Shown in pieces: positions 1 to 61,936 of a stretch of 64,000 nucleotides of DNA. How positions within the stretch are numbered: position 1 is the first letter of the stretch; each line of letters opens with the position of its first letter. The notes below the pieces were generated by a model that saw nothing but the letters and a program-made list of their open reading frames with translations, had not been told where the DNA came from and searched no databases. The stretch comes from Mesostigma viride (taxonomy: Eukaryota > Streptophyta > Mesostigmatophyceae > Mesostigmatales > Mesostigmataceae): NCBI GenBank assembly GCA_009746045.1, contig RPFO01001959.1, forward strand, positions 1 to 64,000, in the 5' to 3' direction. A program made the translations under genes and the position numbers.

Positions 1-612
1 AGTTACTTTGCCTACCATCAGAATATTGGACCCTGACAGGCACAGGGTGAGGAAGGACTGGCAAATGCAGTTCCTGCAAAGGGAAGTGGAAATGTAGTTC
101 TTACTGCACCAGAGTCAATCATGAAGAGACATAAAGGCTGAGCCAAAGGGACTGGCACGTTCAGCAGCCTACTAGCTTGAAACTTCAAAAGCTGACTGGG
201 AATAGGAGGGCCCAATGAGGTGGCAGAATCAGAGGCAACAGGTTGTTCACAGGGCGAACATGCACAGCAGGCAAACCAGTTAACTCCCAGCTGGACGTAG
301 TCCTGGGGGCTCCACTAGCTTTTTTGGCAACTCAGGGGGGTGATCTGAAGACGAGCCCCAACTGGAAGCTGCACCTGCTGCTCCTCTAGGTTGTCCTCCT
401 CCCTTCCATCCTCCTCCTCCGCTAGAAGATGCCACAGGCGTTGACCATCCTCCGTCTGTCTTGTCTGCTGAAGTCCCTGGGCTTGAATGGTCCCTGCCCG
501 ATGCCTGAAAGTTGGGTCTGAACCCAGGCTGCATCCTGTGGTCGCTCTGGTTCACCCCGGGAGGTAGGAGGGATGGTCTGGCGGTGAATGGAAGCACCCC
601 TTGGGGACCTTG
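1..612 (-). pseudogene. 3' part of a disrupted minus-strand retrotransposon Gag region
   Basis: This piece continues the minus-strand Gag region seen at 15195-16656. Removing the copia-like insertion (613-15194) and one copy of its CCTTG duplication rejoins the two. The joined minus strand reads from a CCHC-like knuckle into a Pro/Gly/Ser/Arg-rich low-complexity stretch (about 300-612) and then stops. Frames change several times, so this copy is not an intact gene. No protease or RT is visible before the window edge; the rest of the element, including its 3' LTR, must lie to the left. The assignment rests on continuity with the right-hand piece, since the low-complexity part alone is not diagnostic. 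Confidence 0.5.
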
Positions 613-1018
613 TGTTAGGGATATTATATCCACCTGGCCACAATATATCCCAGCCTGATTTATTTCTTGTTGGATTTATTCCATATGGACTGGGAATTTG
701 ATAGCTTTGATAAGCTAGGTGAATTGGGCTCATGAGCTGATCAATATTCATGTGCCATAGTCCTATACTTGGACATGGATGACTTGTAACCTGAGTCAGC
801 CTAGTAGCATCACGTATTTGATTGACAAGTGGTGCTATGGCCTATTGGACAAGTGTTTGGTCCATGAGCTGACAAGTGTTGGCAGCTCATGATGACACAT
901 GTTATCACTTACATGATGACAAGTGGGTAGACTCATTGCATGACACTTGTCACTCCAAGGAGAAGAGATGTGTCACTTTATTAATCATGTTATGTGGCAC
1001 ATTATTATGTAGACACTT

Positions 1019-2262
1019 TGTCACGGACGCGAGCTATGTCATCCGGGCGGCGCCCACTATGCACAAGACGGTGACGTGCGCAAGGAATTTGTTTTCTACG
1101 CATTTTCGACAAAGGCTAGTGACCGGGGGGGACACTAGCACTTGCAGCATAAGAGCGGCGAAAGTGTACGTGCACGCGCGCCGGGCCAGGCACAGCTGGG
1201 CGCGCAGCACTGACTTGAGCGGACGGCAGCACAAGTGCGCAGCGTCGAGAGGATCATACGCGTGTTAGTGGACAGCTGGAGCTGAAGCTGGACTGCTGGA
1301 CTTCAACAGCGCCGAGGCTATTGACAGGCCAGGTGTCTTTGTGGTGTAGAATAGCGGGTCACGTTATGAGGACTGGACAGAAAATGGAAAAGGACAATTT
1401 GCGGTGCGGAGCAGATCGCTGGAATGAATGCGAAATCGCTGGCAGCCCTACAAAGGGATTTTTCTAGAAAGGAACGATTAGACGCAATGTTTGCTGGGCC
1501 ACTCACACGCAAGGTGTGAGCGTGCAGATTGTCTGAAGGATATTATGCTTCGACCTTGCTGGACGTGACTCAATGTCGGACATTCCCAGGGACAGAAATG
1601 CCGGAGCTTCTAGGAGATGAGATCGGCAACAGGGTAGCAATTTAGATTTGTCGGGATGCCTTCCTGCTTTTGTTGGCATGTGTGGTAGAAAGCCAGGACG
1701 GCAACTGGAATGCGGTTTCTATTTGCATGGTTCAGGCAGCAAGATAGTTTTGGCATTCCTGGCTGGACTGACAAGTGTGGCGTGTGTCATGCGTGTGGCA
1801 TGACGACTGGTTTGGTTCATAGTCGAAGAGGATCTCACGCAGCGTGTAGTCTCTTCGAGTCTCTCGTTAGTGGCCTTCGTGTTTCTCCTTTCCTTGGGAG
1901 CAAGGCCGGTAGCATGTCATGGAGCGCTGCCTAACTGCGGGCTCGTGAGCATGGAGTGCATCGATATTGAGACTATCAACGTGTTGTAATTGTATTAACT
2001 TTCTCAATAAATTCCGCATGTGCGGCTTCATCATCAGACTGTGCAAAGTGTGTGTTGTGAAAGCATTGTTCTATAGCAGGGGAGGCAAAAGCACCCTCTT
2101 GCACCATCATATTGTCGCAATTAGAGTAGTTGGAGCGTCTAGCTAACGCCCCAGCAAGGATATTCAAAGGCGGCACGCGACGGTACACAAGGGGATCAAG
2201 AAGGTGGTCATCAGGCACGAGGGACAGTTCCTTGTCCTCGGCTGAGAGCCCTCTTTTCATTA
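1019..2262 (+). repeat. Terminal repeat A1 of the Ty3-like element
   Basis: It matches A2 (9671-10920) at about 99 percent from TGTCACGG through TTTTCATTA. It is followed at 2263 by unique internal sequence (CTCGAAGAG), not by the 142-bp B segment that follows A2. I see no TGG-type tRNA primer site right after it. Confidence 0.9.
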
Positions 2263-2534
2263 CTCGAAGAGACTAGCTCCATCTGCAAAGGAACATTTTC
2301 ATTTCAGCAAAGAGAGACGGTGTGCAGTTTTCTGGGGAAGACTAGCACACATAGTGGCCTGATCAACCATTAAGTCTTTCAGATTAGACCGTTGCTACTT
2401 GGTAGTGGTTGTGGCAGTTTATGTCATATCACACTAGGTCGGTCACAGCGTTTTTGGCAAGCCACGCAGGCTGTGCCAACACGGGCGTCGACACCGACGG
2501 GCAGGAGCTCTCCAGGGTCGATACCACCATCAAC

Positions 2535-3640
2535 ATGTCAGGAACTGACCCCACAGCATCAGGCAGTGGTGGGTCAGCGCCGGCAGCTACGGGCGGTCAA
2601 GCAACTGACCCGCCCAGCGGTCGTCTCGGCACTAGTGCGGACACCGCTTTGTTAGGTAATGGAGCGCCTTCCCTTTCTTCGGCAGGGGACGGTGGTGCTC
2701 TTACCCAAGTGCTGCGCCTGCTGCAAGAGCAAGCGGCAGAGCTGGCGGCACTCCGAGCTCAGCAAGCGACGCAGTTATCGCAACAGGCGACGCTTGTTGA
2801 AGAAACTGTGCGACTTGCTTTGGAGCGCGCGGAATCTACGGCTGAAGCGAGGCGTGCTACGGAGCGCGCTGAGCAACGGCGGCAGGAGGAGGCAACCACG
2901 GAAGCTGCACGCGCCTGCCAAGCTGCGGCCCAACGCGACGCCGAGGCCAGGCAGGCTGCCGACGAGGAGGCCGCTGCCGAGGAAGCGCGGCGACATGAGG
3001 CGCTGCGTGACCAACGCGGACACTTCGACGAAGAGCGCAGTGGGACAGGTCCACTACGCAACGTTGAGCCCAGTCAGCCACGCGTCGGACCAAGCGGTCA
3101 ACGGCGGGGCGACGGGGAAATGGCGCAGGATGACGAGCTGCAGCCGAACGTCGGTCGGGTAGGCACCCGGTCGACTGCCGACGCATCTTATACGCTGGGG
3201 GGGAACCTACGGGCACCCAACCAAGGCACGTTATGGTGGCGGCGGCAGTGGCTACGGTGGTCGGGGTCGCGGTGGTGGTCGAGGCGGAGGCGGTCGTCCG
3301 CCGTCATCGGATGGGACTCAGGAACCGCAGGGCGTGCAAGGCGCGCTGGGCGCACCCACCCCGTCACGCGGTAAATGTTACCTTTGCGACAAGGATGGGC
3401 ACCTTAGTCGCGAGTGTCCAAGCCGCTGCACGAAGCCGCATGGGGCAGACACGAAGTGGCACCTGATGAACAAGTGTCCAGCCGCGGGCATCAAGACGGT
3501 CCACTTCGCCGAGATGGCGGGCAAGACCGACTCGATGGAAGCCCAGGTGGCTGCCATCAAGCATGGTGAGGAGGCGACGGCGCCCCCCAACCAATTCGAC
3601 GGTGTACCGGGAGGACCCATTCTGGGCGCCCATGCCGGGT
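2535..3640 (+). pseudogene. Gag of the Ty3-like element (coiled coil, RGG box, CCHC knuckle), frameshifted
   Basis: The likely start is the ATG at 2535 (MSGTDP). The N-terminal part is a long Ala/Glu/Arg/Gln-rich coiled coil (about 2710-3040). A single-base frame change in the seven-G run at 3197-3203 leads into a Gly/Arg-rich RGG segment (3203-3310), then the zinc knuckle CYLCDKDGHLSREC (CX2CX4HX4C, about 3376-3417). The frame then changes again near 3600 into the protease ORF. Gag packages element RNA; the RGG and CCHC parts would bind nucleic acid. No conventional capsid fold is recognisable by eye. Either the copy has decayed or the G run is miscalled; dropping one G would make coil, RGG and knuckle continuous. 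Confidence 0.75.
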
Positions 3641-5524
3641 GACGTCGAGATCAACGCTGCGGAGGCTACCAAAGGCAAGCAGGCACGCAGCCCGCTTTCT
3701 TTTCAGCAGGCACCCATGTTGCCTGCCGGGCAGTTGCCCGCGTCCTTTTCCATGCCGCTGGCTGGGGTGCAATCTGCTTTTGAGCATGCGAACCCTGCTG
3801 GGCTGGAGCAGCGTAGGCGATTGGCGCCTGTGTACCCAATGCCGTTCATTGTGGACGTACCCATGTTTTCAGCACGGCAGGTGGTCGACACCTTCGGGCA
3901 GAAGGGGGTTGAGTGGCTGGGGTCGGTTGTGTCCGAGATCCAGTTGTTCGCAGATGGGCATGATGTGCGCACCTTGCGCAATTCTGAGTCCGTCACCTAC
4001 GGGCGTCAGCCGGTAGAAGCCGCAGTGCCCGTGGTGCAAGCGGGAGTGGTCAGCACAAGTAGCCAGCAGCGCACTAGTGCAGTTCCCCAGGTTCCCACGG
4101 TGGTTCCATACCCCAATGGTGAGCCGTCCATAGCGTTCCAAGCAGTTGGAGCCTGTGGAGATGTATGGAGCGACATGGTGACATGTCCGTTGGTTGGCGC
4201 AGTCAAGCTTGATAGCGGTGCTCAGCCGCTAGTCATCAGCACAGACTTGGCCACCATGCTGAACCTGACCTACGAGAACGGTGGCTTAGTGGAAAGCCCC
4301 GTGTCTGTGTCAGGTTGGCAGGGTCCGGCTAGTAAGCCGTACGCTATGACGGCGGTTAAAGTCAACGTGATTTTCAATCCGTTGCGCGCCTCTAGCATGA
4401 CCACCGTGTCCGCGTATGCGCTGGTGGTCAACAAGTGTGGATATTCCGCACTACTCGGGGTGGATGTCCTTGCTCGCGCCATGGTTCAGGTGGACTATAG
4501 GGCGGAGGAGGCATCTTACATCCCTGATTGGGATGGGGCTGGCCTGAAGCGGGCCAGTGTGCCGGTCTCATGCTTCAGTTCTTCAGCCGGGGCTGCACGC
4601 CTCAACCCTTCCGCGGCTGCGGGCGTGGTGGAGGTCAGCATGGTGGAGGTACGGGCGGCGGGCTCATCGGCGTGGGACAAGCATCGGACGGTGCTGCCTC
4701 AGCCAACGGCGAGCATTGCCAAGATGCGCACGCAGTGGTCGCTGGATGCTGTGACGTCCACGCGGCAGCTGGCTATGCGCAAGCGGGTGACTGAAGCCGT
4801 CATCACCATTCCTCAGATGGCCAGCCATGGCCTCACTTTGGTGCAACCGGGTGTCTCGGAGGCCCAAGGTAATTTTTCTGCTGCAATCTTACCGCAGGCC
4901 CCTGATTTTGCCAAGGGTGCGGTAGTGTTGGAACTGTTTGCGGGGATCGGAGGGGGCATTGCAGGCTTTTTGGCCGCAGGCGGCGTGTGCCGTAAACTCA
5001 TCGCGGTAGAGCCATCGCACAAGGCGCGTCAGGTGTACTTCAGTCACTGTGGCGTGTTGTCGCGAGAGTATCCCGCGCAGTTTCCGCCATCAGCATGGCG
5101 TGACCCGTTTGGGGAATGTCCTCAAGATATCCGAGCCATCGGTGAGGTGCAGGTGCAGCAGTTGTTGCGCAGGCATCATGCCATCGACTTGGTAATTGCG
5201 GGTTGGGAGTGCCAGGGCCTGAGCCAGGCAGGGCAAGGGCGGGGGCTAGCCGATCCGCGTAGCGCGCTGTTCTGGGAACTGTTGCGTGTGGTGGGACTGT
5301 TGCAGTCGCGTCAGCCCCATCCGCCTGCGTATCTGTTTGAGAACGTTGTGGCGGGTGACAGCCCACATCAGGCGGTGCGGGAGGACTGGGCTACAATCGT
5401 GGCACTCCTGGGGGAGCCCATCGTGTGTGACAACGCAGGGCTGGGTGGGCTCACGCATCGTTTGCGTGCCTATTGGACCAACGTGGCGTGTGCGACCGGT
5501 GTGCAGGCGGTCTTGGGGCCGTAG
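3563..5524 (+). CDS. Retropepsin plus N-terminal two-thirds of a C5-cytosine DNA methyltransferase
   Basis: This long frame starts in overlap with the Gag frame. An aspartic protease lies near residues 205-320, with catalytic LDSGAQ at about 4208 and the flap-side ALLGVDVL at about 4450. From residue 450 comes a methyltransferase: motif I LELFAGIGGG (about 4927), motif IV with the putative catalytic Cys at residue 550 (5210-5212) in GWECQG, motif VI ENV at 5339-5347, and a motif VIII-like HRLRAYW near 5457. The frame stops at 5524 but the domain continues in the next ORF. The domain would transfer a methyl group from AdoMet to cytosine. The usual Pro-Cys is Glu-Cys here. It lies between protease and RT, so it is probably made as part of the polyprotein. 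Confidence 0.85.
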   Translation: MVRRRRRPPTNSTVYREDPFWAPMPGDVEINAAEATKGKQARSPLSFQQAPMLPAGQLPASFSMPLAGVQSAFEHANPAGLEQRRRLAPVYPMPFIVDVPMFSARQVVDTFGQKGVEWLGSVVSEIQLFADGHDVRTLRNSESVTYGRQPVEAAVPVVQAGVVSTSSQQRTSAVPQVPTVVPYPNGEPSIAFQAVGACGDVWSDMVTCPLVGAVKLDSGAQPLVISTDLATMLNLTYENGGLVESPVSVSGWQGPASKPYAMTAVKVNVIFNPLRASSMTTVSAYALVVNKCGYSALLGVDVLARAMVQVDYRAEEASYIPDWDGAGLKRASVPVSCFSSSAGAARLNPSAAAGVVEVSMVEVRAAGSSAWDKHRTVLPQPTASIAKMRTQWSLDAVTSTRQLAMRKRVTEAVITIPQMASHGLTLVQPGVSEAQGNFSAAILPQAPDFAKGAVVLELFAGIGGGIAGFLAAGGVCRKLIAVEPSHKARQVYFSHCGVLSREYPAQFPPSAWRDPFGECPQDIRAIGEVQVQQLLRRHHAIDLVIAGWECQGLSQAGQGRGLADPRSALFWELLRVVGLLQSRQPHPPAYLFENVVAGDSPHQAVREDWATIVALLGEPIVCDNAGLGGLTHRLRAYWTNVACATGVQAVLGP

Positions 5525-8016
5525 CAAGGCAGCATCCGAGTGTGTCTGCGGAGGTAGCATTGCCTTCCCACCTAGTCACGCAGAAGGTGGATAGCGAGGA
5601 TCGCCCACCGTATGCACGCGTCAACCGGGTCGGGAGCCCCATGTGTGCACTGCCGACCCTGGTCAGTTACCAAGGGTCGACAGCATACCGTGATCGGGGT
5701 AAGGGTCTCGTTTGGGACACTACCACCGGTCTGTTGGTGCAGCCACCCGCAGAATTTCGTGAGGCCAGCATGGGTTTTCATGTCGGGGCCTCGGCGCTGC
5801 CGGGCGTGCTCGAGAGTGAGCGCTGGTCTTTGATAGGCCAGGCTATGTCGGTGTTGCAGGTCGGGTATGTGCTGCTTGCATCGGTTGCCGTGCGCCAGTC
5901 TGGGGGGGCGTCCCCAGCCAATCCGCCTCAGCAGGTTGAGGCGCGCGCAGCCAAACTGAAGCGCCCTGCAGCGACGGGGACTTCATCAGCATGGGGGTGG
6001 CGTCTGCGACAGGTGTGGACTATCATTCTCATGACCGCCCTGCTGACCAGCACCGTGCTGGCCGGCGAGCCCACGCTGCATCGGGTAATACACCGTGCGG
6101 CACGCGAGGCTCCGGCGGTGGGTGTCACACCAGGTGTGGCAGCCTTTTCCTTGTTCCACGACGATGCGGCTAGGGCGCCGCATCTTGAGGCACATGCGGT
6201 AGCTGTGGGTGATCCCGCGGATACGCACCCCTGGGCTATTGGCGAACACCTTTCTGATGCGCAGCGCTCAGCCATGCTAAAGTGGCTAGGCACTGCAAGG
6301 GGGGCCTTCGCTTTCACAAGTGATGAACTGGGGTGTTTCAATGGTGGGACCATGCGTGTTCCATTGGACACTGACACTCCTTTGTTCCGACGCCAGCATC
6401 GCCTGAGTCAGGCCGAGTTGGATTTTGTAGCCGAGCAATGCAAGGAGTTAGAGGATGCCGGTATCATCAGGCAATCTTCCTCCAGCTATGCTGCTGCCGT
6501 TGTCGTTGCGCCCAAGAAGGACGCTATCACCGGGGCATGGACGGGTATGCGCATGGCCACCGATCTGCGGTTGCTGAATGCACACACACCCGTGGACCGT
6601 TACCCCATGCCACGTGTGGATGATGTCCTGGATAAGATATCTCCTCATGTGAAGTTTGTGTCCTCGCTGGACCTGCGTAGCGGCTTTCATCAGATCGCAG
6701 TTGCGCCGGAGGATCAGCGGAAGCTTGCATTCTGGGGGGGCGGCAATTTGTATGAGTGGGTGCGCATGCCCTTTGGGCACCGCAACGCTAGTGCTGTTTT
6801 CCAACGAGCTATGGACAAAGTGCTTGCAGGTCTTCCTTTCGCCGCTTGTTACATTGATGATGTAATCGTCTTTAGCGCGACATTTGAGGAGCACCTGGCG
6901 CACTTGGAGCAGGTTCGCTTGGCTCTCGAGGAGCATAATATGCGGCTGCACCCTGAGAAGTGCAAGTTCGCCCAGCGGACCCTCTCATTCCTTGGTCATC
7001 AGATTGTGCCGGGTGGCCGGACGCCTGATGCCGCCAAGGTCGAATCCATTGCGCAGGCCGCCGTACCCACGGATGTCTCAGGGGTGCGGGCGTATTTGGG
7101 TTTGGCTGGCTATTACCGAGGTTACATTGAGAACTTCAGCAGCAAGGTGAAGCCCTTGACCGAGTTACTCAAGAAGGGGTGCGTGTGGGCGTGGGGTCCC
7201 GCACAGCAACGCGCCATCGAGACAATCAAGCAGGAGCTCACGTCGGCACCGATTCTGCGCGCCCCTGACTATGCTTTGCCATTTGTGTTATATACCGACT
7301 GGTCCAAGGTAGGACTGGGTGCGGTCTTGGCGCAAAAGGATGGTGATGGGCGCGAGCACGTTATTGCTTATGCTAGTCGCAGCAACAACCCAGCGGAGAG
7401 CCGGTATTCTTCCTATGAGGGGGAGGCACTGGCTGTGGTGTGGGCCATCAAGCACTTTCGCCCGTATTTATTTGGGCGCGTGTTTACTCTGGTGACAGAC
7501 CACCAGCCGCTTCAGTGGCTAATGACCAACACCAACCTGACGGGTAAGCTCGCCCGATGGGCCATGATTATCCAGGAGTACCACATGACCATTGTGCATC
7601 GGGCCGGCAAGGACCATGTCAACGCCGATGTGCTATCCCGATACGCCATGCCTACCACTGTTGACCACACTGGAGCCCGGGCCATGGGTGCCGAGGGCTC
7701 GTCTGGTTCTGTGGTCTTTGTGAACGCTGCTGGGTATGCGGCCGACGATGAGGAGGAGGCGTGGTGGCGCAGTGTCGAGTACTCTGTGGCGGACTTCGGC
7801 ATCAGCGACGACCCGGTGCGGCCGTCGCCATTCACGCCATCCAAAGCTGTGTGCGCTATGGAAGAGGGTAGGTCTCTGTCCTTTGACATTGATCCTTCTC
7901 TGCAGCAGCTGATCGCTGTGCAGGCTCTCTTAGCGCGTAGCTCTCTTGCTGATTGCTACACCGCTGATATCTGGCTAGATGGTCGAGTTTGGAGCAAGTG
8001 CAGGGTGCTGTCTTGA
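5473..8016 (+). CDS. C-terminal methyltransferase part, reverse transcriptase and RNase H
   Basis: The frame overlaps the previous ORF by about 50 bases and is offset as for a -1 shift. Its first 130 residues complete the methyltransferase: a target-recognition-like region, MGFHVG (about 5769, resembling the MGFP motif) and GQAMSVLQVGYVLL (motif X-like, about 5840). A hydrophobic segment near 6005-6065 follows. RT comes next, with the SLDLRSGFHQI block (about 6664), the catalytic YIDD at 6850-6861 and the FLGH motif. RNase H starts at YTDWSKVGLGAVLA (about 7291), with the usual TDHQPL later. Domain order and motifs are typical Ty3/gypsy. The frame ends just before integrase, which continues in another frame. 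GGGG at about 5515 lies at the upstream junction. Confidence 0.88.
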   Translation: MDQRGVCDRCAGGLGAVARQHPSVSAEVALPSHLVTQKVDSEDRPPYARVNRVGSPMCALPTLVSYQGSTAYRDRGKGLVWDTTTGLLVQPPAEFREASMGFHVGASALPGVLESERWSLIGQAMSVLQVGYVLLASVAVRQSGGASPANPPQQVEARAAKLKRPAATGTSSAWGWRLRQVWTIILMTALLTSTVLAGEPTLHRVIHRAAREAPAVGVTPGVAAFSLFHDDAARAPHLEAHAVAVGDPADTHPWAIGEHLSDAQRSAMLKWLGTARGAFAFTSDELGCFNGGTMRVPLDTDTPLFRRQHRLSQAELDFVAEQCKELEDAGIIRQSSSSYAAAVVVAPKKDAITGAWTGMRMATDLRLLNAHTPVDRYPMPRVDDVLDKISPHVKFVSSLDLRSGFHQIAVAPEDQRKLAFWGGGNLYEWVRMPFGHRNASAVFQRAMDKVLAGLPFAACYIDDVIVFSATFEEHLAHLEQVRLALEEHNMRLHPEKCKFAQRTLSFLGHQIVPGGRTPDAAKVESIAQAAVPTDVSGVRAYLGLAGYYRGYIENFSSKVKPLTELLKKGCVWAWGPAQQRAIETIKQELTSAPILRAPDYALPFVLYTDWSKVGLGAVLAQKDGDGREHVIAYASRSNNPAESRYSSYEGEALAVVWAIKHFRPYLFGRVFTLVTDHQPLQWLMTNTNLTGKLARWAMIIQEYHMTIVHRAGKDHVNADVLSRYAMPTTVDHTGARAMGAEGSSGSVVFVNAAGYAADDEEEAWWRSVEYSVADFGISDDPVRPSPFTPSKAVCAMEEGRSLSFDIDPSLQQLIAVQALLARSSLADCYTADIWLDGRVWSKCRVLS

Positions 8017-8564
8017 CTCCTACTCCAGTCGATTGGACTCCTGCTCAGAAGGCGACGGAGTTGAACAGGGTGCAGCACAGGGCTGCAACCTATGGTTGGG
8101 AAGATGGGGTTTTGTACAAGCTGTTGGGCAAGCGTAGGGTGGTCGTCCCACCGCCTGACAAGCGCGTTGCTATAGTGCAGGCGTACCACGAGCGGTATGG
8201 TCACTTGGGTGGCAATCGCACGCTCAGCCTCGTACGGACCAGCTATTGGTGGAATAACATGCGACACACGGTGGCCCAGGTAGTGGCCAGCTGTGTCCCG
8301 TGTGCTCGAACCAAGGCTAACTTTAGCGCAGATCATGGTGCCAAGGAGCTGATGTCGCTTCCCATCAAGGGCTTGTTTTATCGCTGGCACGTCGATCTGT
8401 GCGGGCCGTTTCAGGAGAGCCCTGACGGCAACCTCTATGTCATGGTATGCGTGGAGAGCTTTAGCAAATGGGTTGAGTTGATCCCCATTGCTGACAAGCA
8501 TGCCGCTACCACAGCGAAGCATTTTGCGGACATCATACCAGGTTTGGGGCTCCCGCGGAGGTAG
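7989..8564 (+). CDS. Integrase N-terminal zinc domain and start of the DDE core
   Basis: This frame overlaps the RNase H ORF by 28 bases. It shows the HHCC zinc domain (H and H in HERYGHLGG near 8190, then CVPC near 8296) and the first catalytic Asp in WHVDLCGPF (about 8386). The frame is lost near 8545, at a GGGG run, just before the second catalytic Asp. Joined to the following ORF it makes a complete Ty3-type integrase. It would insert element cDNA, consistent with the 4-bp ACTT duplication at the ends. Confidence 0.85.
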   Translation: MEQVQGAVLTPTPVDWTPAQKATELNRVQHRAATYGWEDGVLYKLLGKRRVVVPPPDKRVAIVQAYHERYGHLGGNRTLSLVRTSYWWNNMRHTVAQVVASCVPCARTKANFSADHGAKELMSLPIKGLFYRWHVDLCGPFQESPDGNLYVMVCVESFSKWVELIPIADKHAATTAKHFADIIPGLGLPRR

Positions 8565-9499
8565 TCACGGACCAGGGTGGTGAGTTCAGGGGTGAGTTCC
8601 AGGAGTTGCTGGATGGATGTCTTATTGATCACCGTCGCACTTCTCGGGAGCATCCTCAGGCCAATGGTTTGGCTGAGAGATTGGTGCAGACCGTCAAGCA
8701 GGCGCTGCGCAAGTGGAGCCTGCAGGTGCCGGAGTCGGCCAGGTGGGATCGCGAGTTGGCATGGATTGCCATGGGTTATCGCATGTCTCCCCAGGAGTCT
8801 CTCGCTACCTTCTCCCCGTATTTCCTTCTGTTCGGGCGTAATCCTCTTTTGCCTACGGAGGCACAGGTTGCGCACCCCGAACCCATGGCCTTCGACAACG
8901 CTCAGCAATTTTTGGTTGAGGTGCTGGCCAGGGCAGAGACTTTTAAGAAGGTCATGCCCATCGCGATGAACAACTTGTTCATTGCTCAGCACAGGGACTC
9001 CCTGCGCTACGCTCAGCGCCGGGGGGGCACATACATGGCTCGCCAGCTGCGGTTTAGGCCAGGGCAGTATGTTTTCCTGCGCACTCAGCTGAAGCACACT
9101 TTGGATGTGGAGGCGGGGCCCACCATTTTGCGCATTGTGGCTATCAAACCATCGGGAGTGGCAATTTTGGAGGGCGCCGACGGGAGCCGTACGACTGACA
9201 ACCTCAGCAATCTCAGTCCCTGCTCGCTGCCCAATTTGGTCCACGACCTCCAACCGCACACGTCTCGCCGAGTCAAGGACGCCCAGTGTCAGGTTTGTCA
9301 CCGGGTCGATCAGGCGGAGTCCATGTTATTGTGTGATCAGTGTAACTGTGGTTGGCACATGCAGTGCTTGCAGCCAGTGGTCACCAGCATTCCGGAGGGG
9401 GATTGGTTTTGTCCAGTGTGCACCGCTGCGCAGTTTACCTCCCGCAGCTTGACTGCGGTCACCGCTGCCCTTGTCTTGGTACGATCGCTGTCTTCGTGA
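8563..9499 (+). CDS. Integrase catalytic core (second Asp, Glu) with C-terminal PHD finger
   Basis: This frame supplies VVTDQGGEF (second Asp, about 8567) and the catalytic Glu in ANGLAERLVQ (about 8665), then the usual FLLFGRNP block (about 8824) and a C-terminal region. A canonical C4HC3 PHD finger follows at about 9290-9421: CQVC, CDQC, GWH, C and CPVC with normal spacing. Ty3-type chromoviruses often carry a chromodomain at this position; here a PHD finger takes its place. PHD fingers typically read histone H3 tails, so targeting to particular chromatin is a reasonable inference. The ORF ends at 9499, about 20 bases before the purine tract. Confidence 0.87.
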
Positions 9500-9516
9500 T
9501 GGGGCCGGTCGCCAGC

Positions 9517-9527
9517 GAGGGGGGGAA
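9517..9527 (+). promoter_or_regulatory. Polypurine tract of the Ty3-like element
   Basis: GAGGGGGGGAA immediately precedes the first B segment. In a conventional element the 3' LTR starts right after this tract, which would make B1 the start of the reverse-transcription-defined LTR, not A2. Confidence 0.65.
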
Positions 9528-9668
9528 TCATGGGACAGGTCCTCGCCCACCCCACAGGGCATGCAGTTAAGGCAGGCACGTCAGCTCAGCTCATTTGGGT
9601 TTTACCAAATTAAGCTGAGTGGCCAGCCGCCATGGTGGCGCCGGAGATTGTGGCACGCAGACGCGACA
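9527..9668 (+). repeat. Segment B1 of the Ty3-like element
   Basis: This 142-bp segment from TCATGGGACAGG through GACGCGACA is repeated at 10921-11062. It is followed by GC and then A2, giving the palindromic junction GACAGCTGTC at 9665-9674. Confidence 0.9.
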
Positions 9669-9670
9669 GC

Positions 9671-10920
9671 TGTCACGGACGCGAGCTATGTCATCCGGGC
9701 GGCGCCCACTATGCACAAGACCGGTGACGTGCGCAAGGAATTTGTTTTCTACGCATTTTCGACAAAGGCTAGTGACCGGGGGGGACACTAGCACTTGCAG
9801 CATAAGAGCGGACGAAAGTGTACGTGCACGCGCGCCGGGCCAGGCACAGCTGGGCGCGCAGCACTGACTTGAGCGGACGGCAGCACAAGTGCGCAGCGTC
9901 GAGAGGATCATACGCGTGTTAGTGGACAGCTGGAGCTGAAGCTGGACTGCTGGACTTCAACAGCGCCGAGGCTATTGACAGGCCAGGTGTCTTTGTGGTG
10001 TAGAATAGCGGGTCAACGTTATGAGGACTGGACAGAAAATGGAAAAGGACAATTTGCGGTGCGGAGCCAGATCGCTGGAATGAATGCGAAATCGCTGGCA
10101 GCCCTACAAAGGGATTTCTTCTAGAAAGGAACGATTAGACGCAATGTTTGCTGGGCCACTCACACGCAAGGTGTGAGCGTGCAGATTGTCTGAAGGATAT
10201 TATGCTTCGACCTTGCTGGACGTGACTCAATGTCGGACATTCCCAGGGACAGAAATGCCGGAGCCTCTAGGAGATGAGATCGGCAACAGGGTAGCAATTT
10301 AGATTTGTCGGGATGCCTTCCTGCTTTTGTTGGCATGTGTGGTAGAAAGCCAGGACGGCAACTGGAATGCGGTTTCTATTTGCATGGTTCAGGCAGCAAG
10401 ATAGTTTTGGCATTCCTGGCTGGACTGACAAGTGTGGCGTGTGTCATGCGTGTGGCATGACGAATGGTTTGGTTCATAGTCGAAGAGGACTCTCACGCAG
10501 CGTGTAGTCTCTTCGAGTCTCTCGTTAGTGGCCTTCGTGTTTCTCCCTTTCCTTGGGAGCAAGGCCGGTAGCATGTCATGGAGCGCTGCCTAACTGCGGG
10601 CTCGTGAGCATGGAGTGCATCGATATTGAGACTATCAACGTGTTGTAATTGTATTAACTTTCTCAATAAATTCCGCATGTGCGGCTTCATCATCAGACTG
10701 TGCAAAGTGTGTGTTGTGAAAGCATTGTTCTATAGCAGGGGAGGCAAAAGCACCCTCTTGCACCATCATATTGTCGCAATTAGAGTAGTTGGAGCGTCTA
10801 GCTAACGCCCCAGCAAGGATATTCAAAGCGGCACGCGACGGTACACAAGGGGATCAAGAAGGTGGTCATCAGGCACGAGGGACAGTTCCTTGTCCTCGGC
10901 TGAGAGCCCTCTTTTCATTA
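9671..10920 (+). repeat. Terminal repeat A2 of the Ty3-like element
   Basis: It is the second copy of A1 with roughly ten small differences. It runs without spacer into B2 at TTCATTA/ATCATGGG. Confidence 0.9.
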
Positions 10921-11062
10921 ATCATGGGACAGGTCCTCGCCCACCCCACAGGGCATGCAGTTAAGGCAGGCACGTCAGCTCAGCTCATTTGGGTTTTACC
11001 AAATTAAGCTGAGTGGCCAGCCGCCATGGTGGCGCCGGAGATTGTGGCACGCAGACGCGACA
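10921..11062 (+). repeat. Segment B2 at the right end of the Ty3-like element
   Basis: It is the same 142 bp as B1 and ends in CA directly against the ACTT target duplication (11063-11066). It therefore forms the true right terminus of the inserted DNA. Confidence 0.9.
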
Positions 11063-11477
11063 ACTTGGCATCTAGCTATTATGCCAGCTCATTGGATCAT
11101 GTCTAGAATGTTCTAGGATTGTTCTAAGAATATGCCAGGAATATTCCTGGAATATACTGAGAATATGCTGGGAATATGCTAGGATTATGCTAGGATGTTT
11201 CTACAAGCTTCTGTGATGATGTCATTGCTGATGTCATCCTTCCTAGCCTAAAAGGTATAAAAGGAAACTGCCCCCTAAGGGCAGGTACCTCCATTCAACC
11301 TCCATTCAACCTCCATTCAAGCTCTTCTCCAACTATTATATTCTAATAAACCATTTATTCTTCCACGTAAATTGTCTTCAACCTCTCTTTCTTTCAGCAC
11401 CTGCAAGGTGTGTGGGTAGCAAGGCCAAGCACAAGGCATTGTGTAAAACCCATTAGTCTCCTCTCCCAATCCAAACA

Positions 11478-12898: not shown

Positions 12899-14376
12899 AC
12901 GCTGCCAGCCTAACTGAGGGGGAACAAATTCGTGGCGCAAGGGCGAAATCGACCAAGCTGCAAAATTTTTCCAAGTCCTGGACTGCCAAGTCCGGTGCTG
13001 GCGCGAGGCCTCGAGCGAGCCGACAACGACGTGGACAGCGACCTGTCAGCCAAAGTGCGGTCAAGCACCAACGGTCAAGTCGACTGCAAAATGCTGCCAA
13101 GGCATCACGTCGGTCAGTTGACGGTGTTCGGCCAGGCCATGGCATTTGCAATTGCGCTAGCTGCAACGACCCTTGGAAATTGTCGCCCAGGATGCACAGA
13201 CCCCACTCCTCAAGGTTGCCCTAATATTTGTCTGTGGGAAATTAACTTGTATGTCGACTTTTGTGTCGTGTTTGCTGGAAATTGTGAGGCGCCGTAAGCG
13301 TGCGTTTTCTGGTTCTTTCTTTGTGTTCTTCCAGCAATTATGTGTTTATTTTGCCATGCGTTCAGTGGCAATGGCCCACGCATTTCGGTATTGTTCCCAC
13401 GAGACGTTTTCTACGTACCTGGAGTGTATCTCCAGAGTTTTTGCACGCTATTTGTGGCACTAGTCTGCGGCGTAGTGAAGCGCCGTTGTATCGTCGTCTA
13501 CGACTTGTTTTCGTGAGTTAAGTGCCTGTGACGCGTGTGTTATTTTGTTTTGTGCTGAGAGCATTGCTTGTATGCAAATGCTTACGTCCTTTGTGTCGAA
13601 TTTGGCTGTGCATTTCGGCATAGCCTGTAATGTCGGACGTAATGTTTACTCTCGGGCACTGATTTGTGAATCGTGACCAAGTAATCGTTACTTGTGTTCG
13701 CCTTTGTGGCGGTAATGTTTTGCACGTCCTGTTTTCTTTGCTATGAAGCGCGTTTATCTGTTATGGCCACTGTGTATTGTGTTGAAGGTTGTATTGCACC
13801 TTGTTTGTGTGGCATTTGTTGCCAATATGTTTGTTTGCTCACCCCGTTTATTTGGCGTAAAACGTGATGTTGGTGTCATTTATTTTGTGAGATGGCGTAT
13901 GTTATGTTGCTCCGTGTGTGTACAGCACGTATTGTTGCCGTTGCCCTACCTCTATACCGTTTGGGTTAGCTCATAGGGACTTTCTTTGTTGGCATGTGTT
14001 GCCGTATTATATGTGTGGGACTGTGTGGCCCTATTGTGTCCATGGGCAGCCGCTTTGAGTGAGGGGGGAATGTAGCATCTAGAGCACTTTTTCCAACTAA
14101 GGGTTGGGTATCAGCCATCCAGGATTGATGGGCAGCTAGTGCGTTGCTGCTATGGTAGGACACTCATTCGCGTTGCCGGGGGGGACGGATCAGTGGCGGT
14201 AGTGCGGCTCATGACCGCATGTTGGAGCTTCAAGCGTTTCACGAGGACGGCATCTTCATTTTCAGTTGCACTATGCTAGCAACTGGACGGCATGCTACGA
14301 GCATGTGGTTAAGGGGGGTGTTGAGATTCCACCTACCCAGTCATCTTTTGCTTTGTGCCCATGTGGCTAAGGGGGG
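12899..14376 (+). other. Non-coding internal remainder of the copia-like element with purine tract
   Basis: There are no recognisable domains. 13230-13980 is T/G-rich with short frames only. Two similar tracts occur, TTAAGGGGGGTGTTGAG near 14310 and CTAAGGGGGGTGTTAGG at 14368-14384. The second is the polypurine tract abutting the 3' LTR; the first looks like a duplicated copy of the same junction. Confidence 0.7.
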
Positions 14377-15194
14377 TGTTAGGGATATTATATCCACCTG
14401 GCCACAATATATCCCAGCCTGATTTATTTCTTGTTGGATTTATTCCATATGGACTGGGAATTTGATAGCTTTGATAAGCTAGATGAATTGGGCTCAATGA
14501 GCTGATCAATATTCATGTGCCATAGTCCTATACTTGGACATGGATGACTTGTAACCTGAGTCAGCCTAGTAGCATCACGTATTTGATTGACAAGTGGTGC
14601 TATGGCCTATTGGACAAGTGTTTGGTCCATGAGCTGACAAGTGTTGGCAGCTCATGATGACACATGTTATCACTTACATGATGACAAGTGGGTAGACTCA
14701 TTGCATGACACTTGTCACTCCAAGGAGAAGAGATGTGTCACTTTATTAATCATGTTATGTGGCACATTATTATGTAGACACTTGGCATCTAGCTATTATG
14801 CCAGCTCATTGGATCATGTCTAGAATGTTCTAGGATTGTTCTAAGAATATGCCAGGAATATTCCTGGAATATACTGAGAATATGCTGGGAATATGCTAGG
14901 ATTATGCTAGGATGTTTCTACAAGCTTCTGTGATGATGTCATTGCTGATGTCATCCTTCCTAGCCTAAAAGGTATAAAAGGAAACTGCCCCCTAAGGGCA
15001 GGTACCTCCATTCAACCTCCATTCAACCTCCATTCAAGCTCTTCTCCAACTATTATATTCTAATAAACCATTTATTCTTCCACGTAAATTGTCTTCAACC
15101 TCTCTTTCTTTCAGCACCTGCAAGGTGTGTGGGTAGCAAGGCCAAGCACAAGGCATTGTGTAAAACCCATTAGTTTCCTCTCCCAATCCAAACA
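14377..15194 (+). repeat. 3' LTR of the copia-like element (intact)
   Basis: TGTTAGGG to CCAAACA, 818 bp. It contains the uninterrupted sequence that serves as the empty site for the Ty3-like insertion (ACTTGGCATC near 14780), and is followed by the CCTTG target duplication. Confidence 0.92.
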
Positions 15195-17581: not shown

Positions 17582-19549
17582 AATCGGGGTTCTTTGAACG
17601 GAGTTTCTTCTATACGTGAATGCGGGAACAAGAGGCCGCAGCCTGGATGAGCGGCTTATAGGTCGTAGTGTTTACTCGTAGCTGTTTGGCTAGAGCTTTT
17701 GTGATTAGTAGATGCAATATAGTGCATGGTTGAAAAATGAATTAAATAAAATGTGCGTTCCGCGCTTAGGTTGATTATACCCGGGCGGAACGGGGCGTGA
17801 GGTGCAGTGCCCCTGAAAAGAACAACCTACGCATTATTTAATACTAGCCGTGCAGATTCGGGATATTCTACCCCCGGTCTGTACGGTTAGCGTCTTACTA
17901 GCATCCACTAAACATAAGGGTTTAATGACGTCAGTTAGCTAGGGATAAGGGAGGTTTTGCGACTAAAAGCCGCTCTGGCTGGTTTTGTCGGCCTCTTTCT
18001 TTGCTCGTTGTCGTTGCGGCGGCAGCCGCAGCTATGGGTGCTGCGGAGCAAAATCCCAAAAGCACTGGTTGCACTGGCCACTTGGCCAGTGGTGAGACTT
18101 CCAGTTGTTAACCGGCCAGGCGTAGTTCCTCGCCCGGTTAACTAAAAGAAAAGAAAATGATTACCTCCGGTCCGCACCTTTTCCCCAGCTTGGGGTCTTT
18201 GGTGGGCCGGATGCCGTGACAGGTGCTCAACTGTCGCTTGGTCGGCCCAGTGCGCGAGCTGGTGCTCCGTACCTGGGGATGCTTGCACCCCGGGTTGGAG
18301 CCGGATGGCTGGCACTGGCGACCCGTGTCTCGGTCCGCGGCCTGCGGCTTTTTCTTCGGAAATTGCTGCTGGCCAGCAAACTTTGCAATTGCCTTCCGCC
18401 GAGGGGGGGTGGTTGGGGCTGGGGACGGCGATGGGAAAAGCGCCTAAGCTAGAAATTTTTTCCCCACGCATAGAAACCTCGGGGGGGAATGCGGTCTTGG
18501 CTGAACGGACTCTCGTTCAGCCAGGTGCCTGGGGCTGTGGCCTCGGGCATCCGGGCTGGCGGGGCCTGGGCTAGGTCCACGTTTTTTCTCGAAGCACCCC
18601 GGGTCTATGGGGAGACGGCCATAGCGGTACCGACTCGGGGCCCCGAGAGGGGTCATGATAGGCTGGCCGTGCGCAATCGCAGTGCAAATGCGCTGGGCCT
18701 TTTTGGGCCTGGCCATGCATCCACAGCCGCCGGGCACACGCCTCCCGATGTGGGGGGCTCCCGTTTTGCGGCAGGGCGGTCACTTGTGACAACGAGCAAG
18801 GTGGAGTGCGGCTTCAAGGGAAAGCCAGGGCGGGGGTGATTGGGCAACGTACTTCATGAAGGGCCTTGAACGGCGTGCCTCCGGGCATGTCAATTAGTGT
18901 CACATGTATGCTTCCACTTATTGTTTTAATGAAGATGCTGGTTTTTGTGGGAGCTACGTGGGACATGAATCGGGGTTCTTTGAACGGAGTTTCTTCTATA
19001 CGTGAATGCGGGAACAAGAGGCCGCTGGATGAGCGGCTTATAGGTCGTAGTGTTTACTCGTAGCTGTTTGGCTAGAGCTTTTGTGATTAGTAGATGCAAT
19101 ATAGTGCATGGTTGAAAAATAAATTAAATAAAATGTGCGTTCCGCGCTTGGGTTGATTATACCCGGGCGGAACGGGGCGTGAGGTGCAGTGCCCCTGAAA
19201 AGAACAACCTACGCATTATTTAATACTAGCCGTGCAGATTCGGGATATTCTACCCCCGGTCTGTACGGTTAGCGTCTTACTAGCATCCACTAAACATAAG
19301 GGGTTAATGACGTCAGTTAGCTAGGGATAAGGGAGGTTTTGCGACTTAAAGCCGCTCTGGCTGGTTTTGTCGGCCTCTTTCTTTGCTCCCCACCCACCCA
19401 CCCTTGTCTTGGTTGCCTCTAGGGCAACGTACTTCATGAAGGGCCTTGAACGGCGTGCCTCCGGGCATGTCAATTAGTGTCACATGTATGCTTCCACTTA
19501 TTGTTTTAATGAAGATGCTGGTTTTTGTGGGAGCTACGTGGGACATGAA
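17582..19549 (+). mobile_element. Non-autonomous split-direct-repeat element, family 1, copy 1
   Basis: The order is A1 (17582-18006), internal (18007-18841), B1 (18842-18967), A2 (18968-19387), a CCCA-repeat spacer (19388-19421), B2 (19422-19549). A starts AATCGGGG and B ends GGGACATGAA. The left end, the B1/A2 junction and the right end all share an AA core. This is the A1-I-B1-A2-B2 topology known from PAT-like, tyrosine-recombinase retroelements such as Kangaroo of Volvox. No recombinase or RT is encoded, so it would be a non-autonomous derivative. A second, inverted copy lies at 52891-54823. Long frames in the internal part show no recognisable domain. Confidence 0.75.
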
Positions 19550-19574
19550 AGTCATTTTTGCTTGTTACAGCGGA

Positions 19575-25585: not shown

Positions 25586-25880
25586 TCTTTTCTCCTCTTT
25601 TCTCCTCTTTTCTCCTCTTTTCTCCTCTTTTCTCCTCTTTTCTCCTCTTTTCTCCTCTTTTCTCCTCTTTTCTCCTCTTTTCTCCTCCTTTCTCCTCTTT
25701 TCTCCTCTTTTCTCCTCTTTTCTCCTCTTTTCTCCTCTTTTCTCCTCTTTTCTCCTCTTTTCTCCTCTTTTCTCCTCTTTTCTCCTCTTTTCTCCTCTTT
25801 TCTCCTCTTTTCTCCTCTTTTCTCCTCTTTTCTCCTCTTTTCTCCTCTTTTCTCCTCTTTTCTCTTCTTTTTTCTTTTTT
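25586..25880. repeat. 10-bp polypyrimidine minisatellite (TTTTCTCCTC)n
   Basis: About 27 nearly perfect units; degenerates to TTCTTTT at the right end. The strand asymmetry (all pyrimidine on the plus strand) means that frames through it in any direction are artefacts. Confidence 0.97.
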
Positions 25881-25990
25881 CTTTTCTTTCAAAATCATAA
25901 TCTACCAATATTTAAGACGCGCGTCTTGACCGGCCCTGACTGTGACGGTAGTTTTCTATGGCCTACCCTGCAGATATGTGCAGGTTGTGA

Positions 25991-51602: not shown

Positions 51603-52890
51603 GAGCTGGAGGTAACCTCCTGCTCCGGCACAGCGCAGGGGGGAAACCGGTATACTGGCGGGGGGACGTCATCCACGTCGACCACAAGCCTTGGCAGGCA
51701 CCCCCAGTCTAGGGAATATAGCAGAAGTGTAGATTAGTAAGGCTTAGCCCACCACGTGGCCCACGCGCATGTGCGCCCATAATGGCCCCCATGGATGATG
51801 CATTAAGAATTTAGCCACGCCCTGCCTATAATGGGACCCCCATGGATGATGCATTAAGAATTAGCTCAGCCCTGCCTATACAGAGAGTCGCTCTCTGATG
51901 AGAAGCCATGCCCTAGCTCTTGTATAGCCATGGTGATCTTCCCCCCCCATGACAGGCTCCCCTTAGTTGGGTTGAGCTTGAGACTCTGGGGGGTGCAGGT
52001 GCCCTTGGTGCACCTAGAGCAAGTGTTGTTTACATTCCCACCGGCCTTGCAGGAAGTAGCTTAGGATGCCATATGCCTCTTCTCTGGGACATGTGCTACA
52101 TATACTCCCAACGGAGTTATGTTCCTAATTAATTAACTCGCATGTCCAAAAGCCTGAAAAACTGAATTTAATGAATATCAATTCCAATGCACTTGGGAAC
52201 CATCTAGTGATGATTGAGTACCATAAATATGATGTTTGGACTTTCATACCACCACTTGTTGGGGGTACTACACCCAACCATGCACCGGTGGCGAGCTAAA
52301 AATAGAAAACTTTTGCGGATGACTGTAGGTGTAAGTTGGCGATGCCATGGTAACCGGAGACGTCCGTCCTATAGTCAGCAAAATTGGTGCGAGAGGTCCC
52401 CAGTTCGATTCCGGTCGGATTCATTTGCAGATCGCGTTTTTCCGCGTTTTCCGCGGCCCGGCACTGAACGCAAATGGTTTTCACCTTTGCGGAGTGCCTG
52501 ATCAGAATAGAAAAAGCCGCTATTTATGAGATATTTTGCCCAAGACAAACCACTTACATATCCAAATGACCTGCCCATACATTCCTGCAAAGTCCCCCCA
52601 CTTCTAAAAAATCTGGGCTATTTACATGGCCAAAATAATCACATTTGTTTAAGTTATTAATTTCCCAAAAAAATGGATACTTTTTTGAGAAAAAATAAAA
52701 TAAAATAAAATCGTTAACACATCGAATTGGGTCATCCATACATTCAAAATTTCACTGAGTAGGGGGAAACACAACCCCAAAGTTTGAGCTCATTCTGTCA
52801 GACAAGCGTAGCTCAAGTTATTGATTTTCCTGTGATGCCACCTGGGCAGACGCTAAAAGAGAATTGAGCTAGTGCTGAGCCAAAATGACA
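51603..52890. other. No recognised gene; tandem duplication and tRNA-like relic
   Basis: A roughly 51-bp duplication (CCCATGGATGATGCATTAAG core) occupies 51779-51880. A tRNA-like stretch at 52363-52419 was considered and not accepted. The rest is AT-rich with short frames. Confidence 0.5.
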
Positions 52891-54823
52891 TTTCATGTCC
52901 CACGTAGCTCCCACAAAAACCAGCATCTTCATTAAAACAATAAGTGGAAGCATACATGTGACACTATTGACATGCCCGGAGGCACGCCGTTCAAGGCCCT
53001 TCATGAAGTACGTTGCCCTAGAGGCAACCAAGACAAGGGTGGGTGGGTGGGGAGCAAAGAAAGAGGCCGACAAAACCAGCCAGAGCGGCTTTTAGTCGCA
53101 AAACCTCCCTTATCCCTAGCTAACTGACGTCATTAAACCCTTATGTTCAGTGATGCTAGTAAGACGCTAACCGTACAGACCGGGGGTAGAATATCCCGAA
53201 TCTGCACGGCTAGTATTAAATAATGCGTAGGTTGTTCTTTTCAGGGGCACTGCACCTCACGCCCCGTTCCGCCCGGGTATAATCAACCCAAGCGCGGAAC
53301 GCACATTTTATTTAATTCATTTTTCAACCATGCACTATACTGCATCTACTAATCACAAAAGCTCTAGCCAAACAGCTACGAGAAAACACTACGACCTATA
53401 AGCCGCTCATCCAGCGGCCTCTTGTTCCCGCATTCACGTATAGAAGAAACTCCGTTCAAAGAACCCCGATTCATGTCCCACGTAGCTCCCACAAAAACCA
53501 GCATCTTCATTAAAACAATAAGTGGAAGCATACATGTGACACTATTGACATGCCCGGAGGCACGCCGTTCAAGGCCCTTCATGAAGTACGTTGCCCAATC
53601 ACCCCCGCCCTGGCTTTCCCTTGAAGCCGCACTCCACCTTGCTCGTTGTCACAAGTGACCGCCCTGCCGCAAAACGGGAGCCCCCCCACATCGGGAGGCG
53701 TGTGCCCGGCGGCTGTGGATGCATGGCCAGGCCCAAAAAGGCCCAGCGCATTTGCACTGCGATTGCGCACGGCCAGCCTATCATGACCCCTCTCGGGGCC
53801 CCGAGTCGGTACCGCTATGGCCGTCTCCCCATAGACCCGGGGTGCTTCGAGAAAAAACGTGGACCTAGCCCAGGCCCCGCCAGCCCGGATGCCCGAGGCC
53901 ACAGCCCCAGGCACCTGGCTGAACGAGAGTCCGTTCAGCCAAGACCGCATTCCCCCCGAGGTTTCTATGCGTGGGGAAAAAATTTCTAGCTTAGGCGCTT
54001 TTCCCATCGCCGTCCCCAGCCCCAACCACCCCCCCCTCGGCGGAAGGCAATTGCAAAGTTTGCTGGCCAGCAGCAATTTCCGAAGAAAAAGCCTCAGGCC
54101 GCGGACCGAGACACGGGTCGCCAGTGCCAGCCATCCGGCTCCAACCCGGGGTGCAAGCATCCCCAGGTACGGAGCACCAGCTCGCGCACTGGGCCGACCA
54201 AGCGACAGTTGAGCACCTGTCACGGCACCCGGCCCACCAAAGACCCCAAGCTGGGGAAAAGGTGCGGACCGGAGGTAATCATTTTCTTTTCTTTTAGTTA
54301 ACCGGGCGAGGAACTACGCCTGGCCGGTTAACAACTGGAAGTCTCACCACTGGCCAAGTGGCCGGTGCAACCAGTGCTTTTGGGATTTTGCTCCGCAGCA
54401 CCCATAGCTGCGGCTGCCGCCGCAACGACAACGAGCAAAGAAAGAGGCCGACAAAACCAGCCAGAGCGGCTTTTAGTCGCAAAACCTCCCTTATCCCTAG
54501 CTAACTGACGTCATTAAACCCTTATGTTCAGTGATGCTAGTAAGACGCTAACCGTACAGACCGGGGGTAGAATATCCCGAATCTGCACGGCTAGTATTAA
54601 ATAATGCGTAGGTTGTTCTTTTCAGGGGCACTGCACCTCACGCCCCGTTCCGCCCGGGTATAATCAACCCAAGCGCGGAACGCACATTTTATTTAATTCA
54701 TTTTTCAACCATGCACTATACTGCATCTACTAATCACAAAAGCTCTAGCCAAACAGCTACGAGAAAACACTACGACCTATAAGCCGCTCATCCAGCGGCC
54801 TCTTGTTCCCGCATTCACGTATA
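52891..54823 (-). mobile_element. Split-direct-repeat element, family 1, copy 2 (inverted)
   Basis: On the minus strand: A1 (54823-54433, missing about its first 30 bp), internal (54432-53597), B1 (53596-53471), A2 (53470-53052), CCCA spacer (53051-53019), B2 (53018-52891). It is nearly identical to copy 1 at 17582-19549 and keeps the same order, including the spacer. The truncated left end shows that the two are not a simple segmental duplication of one flanking context. No recognisable coding domain. Confidence 0.75.
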
Positions 54824-57763: not shown

Positions 57764-57805
57764 TGTGTTTTGGTGCTAAGGGGTTGGTTTTGCTGAGAGC
57801 TTTTT

Positions 57806-57863
57806 GGCTATGGCGGTTTGGCTTGCAGAATGCCCTTGGATGCAAAGGGGGAAGTGTTTTATA
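57806..57863 (-). promoter_or_regulatory. Core promoter of the zinc-ribbon gene (left arm)
   Basis: TATAAAA at 57857-57863 and the motif CCGCCATAGCC at 57806-57816 (minus strand), 47 bases apart start to start. The same pair with the same spacing is found upstream of the RING/TRAF gene. Confidence 0.75.
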
Positions 57864-57984
57864 CCTTCCCCGTGGATGACGCATGGGACTTGTGAAAAAT
57901 CCTGTGGTCGCCGCTGTGACAGGCTGGTAACGGCAAAACGGCCGTGGAAATCCACGCGGTGAAGGCCGCGGGCCGCGTGAATCC

Positions 57985-58550: not shown

Positions 58551-58580
58551 AAGAAAGCTCACTACATCTCTCAGAACACG

Positions 58581-61906: not shown

Positions 61907-61936
61907 CGTGTTCTGAGAGATGTAGTGAGCTTTCTT

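Follow-up and report, generated by a model that had tools for sequence, protein, structure and literature searches.

The DNA analysed here, hereafter the window, comprises positions 1 to 64,000 of Mesostigma viride contig RPFO01001959.1. Positions 1019-11062 are occupied by one inserted Ty3/gypsy-type retrotransposon, which is organised as A-pol-B-A-B (two repeats, A and B, each present twice around a pol coding region), begins with TGTC, ends with GACA and is flanked by a 4-bp target-site duplication (Table 1). The host site is the 5' long terminal repeat (LTR) of a copia-type element, and the intact 3' LTR of the copia-type element (14376-15194) represents the empty site. Because this LTR crosses the insertion point with a single ACTT, while ACTT is found on both flanks of the inserted element, the whole A-pol-B-A-B structure is the unit that inserted, and 1019-11062 coincides with it exactly. 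The two A repeats are 99.2% identical; realignment revealed 2 substitutions and 8 single-base insertions or deletions, 7 of which are bases absent from A1, and residual long-read errors may contribute to these. B1 and B2 show no differences over 143 nt. An earlier reading of this locus made without database searches (the sequence-only reading) had proposed that the copy is young, and the near-identity of both repeat pairs bears this out. The observed/expected CpG ratio is 0.06 in the entered copia-type LTR (14376-15194) versus 0.85 in the inserted element.

On the + strand, Pfam matches follow each other in the order zf-CCHC, protease, DNA_methylase, RVT_1, RNase H, Integrase_H2C2, rve and PHD. 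This includes the protease-reverse transcriptase (RT)-RNase H-integrase order of Ty3/gypsy elements, with a protease match that is weak and below cut-off, and the assignment to this group rests on the Pfam matches, the domain order, the ends and the duplications. The sequence-only reading had placed a C5-methyltransferase between protease and RT, with the C-terminus of the integrase carrying a C4HC3 PHD finger; both were recovered (DNA_methylase, 8.8e-12; PHD, 1.2e-9). In the profile hidden Markov model check that it proposed, DNA_methylase, PHD and RVT were matched in the open reading frames, and the two rve matches, one for each half of the core (0.00019 and 0.02), fell below the curated cut-off. 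Among the Pfam matches of the element's open reading frames there was no tyrosine recombinase, and a DDE integrase was present instead; a tyrosine-recombinase element was rejected on these grounds.

Table 1. Features of the inserted element and its host site in the window.
Feature	Positions	Strand	Evidence
Copia-type LTR, 5' part, entered by the element	612..1018	+	99.5% to 14376-14783
Target-site duplication ACTT, left copy	1015..1018	.	empty-site comparison
Repeat A1, start TGTCACGG	1019..2262	+	repeat comparison
Gag-like reading frame, no Pfam match; copies 5 and 9 have ~1.05-1.07 kb more in the gag region	2406..3374	+	
Reading frame with CCHC zinc knuckle	3163..3642	+	PF00098 3.9e-5
Aspartyl-protease-like stretch	4205..4465	+	PF13650 0.026, PF13975 0.03, both below cut-off
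Predicted Dnmt3-like C5-methyltransferase, motifs I-VIII	4886..5521 (Pfam match 4925-5347)	+	PF00145 8.8e-12; profile to DNMT3
C-terminal part of methyltransferase from motif IX region on, other frame, end approximate	5431..5800	+	alignment with P0121
Reverse transcriptase, YIDD	6511..7005	+	PF00078 1.2e-27
RNase H	7267..7581	+	PF17917 4.2e-39
Integrase H2C2 zinc domain and first half of core	8148..8528	+	PF17921 5.5e-18, rve 0.00019
Integrase core second half and C-terminal domain, other frame	8495..9286	+	rve 0.02
PHD finger C4HC3	9287..9421	+	PF00628 1.2e-9
Polypurine tract GAGGGGGGGAA, overlaps B1 start by 2 nt	9517..9527	+	
Repeat B1, GACA at end	9526..9668	+	repeat comparison
Palindrome GACAGCTGTC at B1/A2 joint, proposed integrase site	9665..9674	.	
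Repeat A2	9671..10919	+	repeat comparison
Repeat B2, GACA at end (element end)	10920..11062	+	repeat comparison
Target-site duplication ACTT, right copy	11063..11066	.	empty-site comparison
Interrupted copia-type LTR, 3' part	11063..11477	+	comparison with intact 3' LTR

Further copies were located through the 15-mer CGACAGCTGTCACGG of the B1/A2 joint, which occurs at 247 places (125 + 122) in 439.9 Mb, or 2243 contigs, of the same genome, compared with 0 + 2 places for the reversed control. Twenty junctions (10 kb each) were fetched; since these were taken from the approximately 100 listed of the 247, with room to the contig ends, they are not a random sample. Six of the 20 show the complete A-pol-B-A-B layout inside the fetched 10 kb, all six with methyltransferase and PHD, the same termini and exact 4-bp duplications (ACAT, GGTT, GCCT, CAGG, GCGG and CAAG). 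Ty3/gypsy elements are expected to have TG...CA ends and a target duplication of 4-6 bp; 7/7 complete copies (the window and the six sampled ones) have TGTC...GACA ends with exact 4-bp duplications. B2 follows A2 in 13/20 junctions, and in 17/20 the joint is preceded, at a distance of 142-151 nt, by the tract GAGGGGGG(G)AA. PHD matches were found in 17/20 junctions and methyltransferase matches in 10/20, all 10 with PHD. A one-off host-gene insertion, named beforehand as the outcome that would speak against the sequence-only reading, is excluded by these 10 junctions, and the claim of a multi-copy family stands. At seven junctions (7, 11, 13, 14, 15, 17 and 19) PHD and integrase were matched but the methyltransferase was not, which may reflect loss, truncation or absence. 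In eight of the 10 methyltransferase copies the domain profile is matched in a single frame with 411-414 bits (model positions 2-293 of 295 where printed), and in the other two across two frames only. Moreover, in two of the 10 a single frame (1701 codons in one copy, 2074 in the other) spans methyltransferase, RT, integrase and PHD, and the frame of 2074 codons takes in CCHC and protease as well. On one contig (C111), two joints (L075 and L076) share one orientation and are separated by 9450 nt. What follows A in L076, the upstream one, matches the 5' untranslated region from copy 12 at 100% over 338 nt; spacing and identity therefore indicate a tandem dimer. A joint pair with the same spacing was seen on contig C133.

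Three more elements (L066, L067 and L068) came from a scan with the integrase-PHD alignment over contigs of prokaryote genomes. The genomes holding these eukaryote-type retroelements carry the labels Synechococcales, Mollicutes and Halorubrum, and the contigs are most likely eukaryotic ones mis-binned into bacterial or archaeal genomes. L066, on a soil-crust metagenome contig, is 9285 nt long with identical 127-nt ends. Its first frame has a weak protease match and a methyltransferase, its next frame encodes RT-RNase H-integrase-PHD, and by these predicted products it is a second element with both methyltransferase and PHD. The two frames are in register and split by one UAG, then CAAUCA (L066:3489-3497). 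The resulting UAG-CAA-UCA fits the leaky-stop context UAG-CAR-YYA, with a chance of about 1 in 512 for the six letters, which suggests that the methyltransferase of L066 may be made at a higher, Gag-side level. L067 and L068 encode integrase-PHD on contigs which stop short of the gag-to-RT region. Among the 120 of 172 integrase relatives listed, 30 have the PHD pattern, including proteins from Klebsormidium nitens (48% identity), the liverwort Calypogeia fissa (52%) and Gonium pectorale (45%); PHD-integrase proteins P0004 and P0005 are both from C. fissa. The K. nitens match is KFL_015960010; a methyltransferase was not seen in that protein's element, and the matches of the methyltransferase protein searches included no methyltransferase from K. 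nitens. A looser PHD pattern was found in 34 of 124 sequences (the 120 relatives listed, the window and L066-L068). In this test only 3 PHD-negative sequences had at least 75 residues past the recognised integrase end, 2 of them with a PHD-like start; it overlooked at least one, P0062 from Closterium NIES-54, which extends well beyond the integrase without a PHD, and the finger is therefore not universal among these integrase relatives.

The window's methyltransferase piece is 99% identical to M. viride Mesvir1 Mv19666 (P0121) and 51% identical to a second Mesostigma protein (P0122). Against structures, a methyltransferase profile made from six sequences (five protein pieces and the window's own piece) scored 57-68 bits with DNMT3C, DNMT3A and DNMT3B, compared with 41 for M.HhaI, 39.4 for 4onj, 37.5 for DRM2 and 27.5 for DNMT2. 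An AlphaFold2 model of the L066 methyltransferase domain (mean predicted local distance difference test score 61, predicted template modelling score 0.62) was submitted to Foldseek, and the 50 listed of 163 matches at E <= 0.001 were all DNMT3 entries. The motif order is canonical and not rearranged in the manner reported for DRM methyltransferases (PMC5890265). Motif VIII, H-R-x-R-x-x-W-x-N, is found in 2/2 DNMT3, 4/6 retrotransposon-type and 0/58 viral sequences, and QxRxR is found in 45/58 viral ones; these counts therefore speak for the Dnmt3 class. By profile, predicted fold and motifs, the enzyme is Dnmt3-like.

The window PHD is nearest to those of BAZ2B, Lid/KDM5, BAZ2A, WSTF and ATXR5. 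Several of these fingers read histone H3 unmodified at lysine 4 (H3K4), and by analogy the PHD of the element could share this preference. The eight zinc ligands of the finger are invariant in 13/13 integrases, which were chosen among PHD-bearing ones.

Normal LTR elements have their polypurine tract directly against the TG of the LTR. The tract of the window meets the start of B1 instead, and the palindrome GACA-GC-TGTC (GACAGCTGTC) formed by the B/A joint follows 148 nt downstream. Identical LTRs directly bounded by a polypurine tract and a tRNA primer site, as in a normal LTR element, were not seen, the primer site being sought in the 60 nt after A1, and an ordinary LTR element was rejected in view of the A-pol-B-A-B layout in the window and the sampled copies. 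The sequence-only reading had missed this split-repeat layout. GACAGCTGTCACG is common to the window and to L066, L067 and L068, which are divergent PHD-integrase elements, at 59-148 nt after a G-run (148 nt in the window, 59-112 nt in L066-L068). When the spacers of L066-L068 were shuffled 3000 times, GACAGCTGTC arose by chance in 2, 11 and 17 cases. The 12-mers shared by the window spacer and the other spacers are almost only those of the joint, with one extra, GCGAGGGGGGGA, shared with L068.

Taken together, we lean towards a young, multi-copy gypsy-type element with the order CCHC-protease-Dnmt3-like methyltransferase-RT/RNase H-integrase-PHD, which probably inserts from a circle cut by its integrase and in which roles for methyltransferase and PHD are proposed. 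Reverse transcription would yield a linear complementary DNA (cDNA) with B-A as the LTR equivalent, and its ends would be joined into a circle at A2/B2. The integrase would then cut the palindrome GACA^GC^TGTC on both strands inside one B-A copy, which would leave CA-3'OH ends and a 2-base GC overhang as in ordinary 3' processing, and A-pol-B-A-B would be inserted with a 4-bp stagger and the GC lost. For foamy virus, cleavage of a 2-LTR palindrome has been reported or proposed to give both processed ends at once, with 2 nt lost (PMC1180852), and HIV-1 integrase cuts its own 2-LTR joint in vitro (PMC1905944). A methyltransferase carried in the particle could methylate the new cDNA, the role proposed for retrotransposon Dnmt3 (PMC5890265), and a PHD of the unmodified-H3K4 type could tether the integrase complex to promoter-poor chromatin. 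The sequence-only reading had suggested that such an element could mark DNA, its own or that of the target, and select chromatin for insertion. A wider claim is possible, though doubtful: that a green-lineage clade of PHD-integrase gypsy elements abandoned linear LTR ends for a hard-wired palindromic circle joint, and that part of it added a Dnmt3-like writer and so places pre-methylated copies in permissive chromatin. If this were true, one polyprotein would unite both halves of the DNMT3 logic, reading unmodified H3K4 and methylating DNA de novo.

Several observations weigh against the favoured account as a whole. The window copy itself is broken; its coding sequence spans six successive frames (five changes), and its gag region lacks ~1.05-1.07 kb found in copies 5 and 9. 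Its single insertion into a copia LTR carries no statistical weight on targeting. The polypurine tract is absent from 3/20 junctions (8, 18 and 19), and none of the four protein pieces was matched at junctions 1, 8 and 18 (3/20). The L067 tract is not certain because its G-run is one of 12 in the spacer, compared with two each in L066 and L068. With regard to the enzyme, motif IV reads ECQ in place of the usual PCQ in both Mesostigma proteins and in P0123 from Closterium, which also has CCHC and protease, and activity can therefore not be assumed; PCQ is found in L066, P0124 and P0125. Phage enzymes reach 84 bits with the methyltransferase profile, above the 68 of DNMT3C, although the phage enzymes had been fetched by motifs of the same alignment and the viral scan (65 methyltransferase loci) served as an out-group only. 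In the tree, the six retrotransposon-type enzymes group by themselves and DNMT3 falls beside the phage enzymes, which does not settle the origin. In the viral contigs, neither P0121 nor the integrase-PHD alignment turned up a relative. By scores and tree, the methyltransferase may be of bacterial or phage origin.

Further objections concern the circle, which is reached by inference. A2 and B2 abut exactly in 11/13 copies with both and are one base off in the other 2/13; this weakens the circle route because sloppy end-joining of a circle should leave small deletions, and the exactness fits a templated route like that of DIRS elements too. Under such a DIRS/PAT-like route, RNA would run from A1 to B2, the internal B1-A2 would bridge the ends, and the layout would be copied rather than rebuilt, with the integrase using the closed B/A joint or linear ends. 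The repeat order is the same as in PAT/Ngaro elements (PMC6681497). Moreover, no tRNA primer site (TGG) was found within 60 nt after A1. However, the DDE integrase in place of any tyrosine recombinase match, the TG...CA ends with 4-bp duplications, and a B repeat that starts at the polypurine tract, as the LTR route predicts, all argue in the other direction, and we regard templated copying of the layout as rather unlikely.

A different doubt concerns function, in that methyltransferase and PHD could be passengers that do nothing for transposition, the enzyme decaying and the finger being a tail that drift has retained. The ECQ motif is in line with this, as is a methyltransferase frame that is broken in the window and in 2/10 of the sampled methyltransferase copies. 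Nevertheless, the domain is in one frame in 8/10 copies, the catalytic Cys, ENV and R.R..W.N are kept in both Mesostigma proteins at 51% identity, the PHD zinc ligands are invariant in the 13 integrases chosen among PHD-bearing ones, and a ratio of nonsynonymous to synonymous substitution (Ka/Ks) below 0.2 has been reported for the K. nitens enzyme (PMC5890265), which together make two idle domains improbable. Finally, a chance product, in which one aberrant integration of an ordinary LTR element (from a 2-LTR circle or by local duplication) left B2 behind, would agree with the ability of foamy virus and HIV-1 integrases to cut such joints (PMC1180852, PMC1905944) and with the tandem dimer in the same genome, but is already contradicted by the six other complete copies with the same layout at different target sites, by the joint conserved in L066-L068 and by the matching repeat order published for a K. 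nitens family (PMC5890265), and can practically be dismissed.

Elsewhere in the window, positions 56485-64000 form a 7.5-kb inverted repeat with itself (99.95% identity) up to the window end, which is either a large palindrome or an artefact of hairpins in long reads. An inverted pair of 1.95 kb (17611-19562 and 52878-54823, 98.7%) with direct repeats inside is probably another mobile element. The 10-base unit TCTTTTCTCC is repeated about 30 times at 25586-25889. Rfam gave no match within the window.

Among known systems, the closest is KnitGypsy-Dnmt3 of K. nitens (de Mendoza 2018), which combines a gypsy pol with Dnmt3 and DIRS-like repeats (PMC5890265). It shares with the Mesostigma element the gypsy domain composition, a Dnmt3 in pol, an unrearranged methyltransferase and A-coding-B-A-B repeats; it comes from another alga, and no PHD is named for it in the main text. 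For this gypsy element, the sections of that paper examined mention neither target duplications nor a polypurine tract or palindrome. SymbioDIRS-Dnmt3 of Symbiodinium likewise has Dnmt3 in pol and the A-coding-B-A-B order, but has a tyrosine recombinase where the Mesostigma element has a DDE integrase (PMC5890265). The PAT, Ngaro and DIRS elements have the same split direct repeats, with A1 at the 5' end and B1, A2 and B2 all at the 3' end (PMC6681497); unlike these, the Mesostigma element has no tyrosine recombinase match and does have 4-bp duplications and TG...CA ends. A chromatin reader at the C-terminus of a gypsy-type integrase is also found in chromoviruses, where it is a chromodomain and no methyltransferase is named in the parts of the source consulted (PMC3605345). 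Ginger1-9_HM has a PHD beside Ulp1 with a gypsy-type integrase, but is a DNA transposon, for which the source, as far as consulted, names no methyltransferase (PMC2836005). In foamy virus and HIV-1, as proposed here, a palindrome between two CA ends is cut by integrase, with 2 nt lost in the foamy virus model; there, however, the palindrome arises by end-joining of LTRs, whereas that of Mesostigma is built into the repeat (PMC1180852, PMC1905944).

A 2025 paper places some DNMT3 members in retrotransposons and names LTR Copia and DIRS families (PMC12344493). Mesostigma itself has CMT/DMT orthologues and 5-methylcytosine according to one genome paper (PMC6947507), and in the main text of another the terms gypsy, "DNA methyl" and PHD do not occur (PMC7027972). 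Among literature titles and the beginnings of abstracts, there was no PHD in a methyltransferase-bearing gypsy element, and the only PHD met beside a gypsy-type integrase was that of Ginger1-9_HM (PMC2836005); nothing was found in print that places a PHD in one polyprotein with the methyltransferase or that explains the A-pol-B-A-B layout. As the combination of gypsy, Dnmt3 and DIRS-like repeats is already known (PMC5890265), the Mesostigma element extends a known kind. It brings retrotransposon-borne Dnmt3 to Mesostigma, with the enzyme in one frame with a finger of the histone-reader type, and it offers a testable account, a palindrome in the LTR equivalent and a circle that would be cut by a DDE integrase, for a layout so far just noted as DIRS-like.

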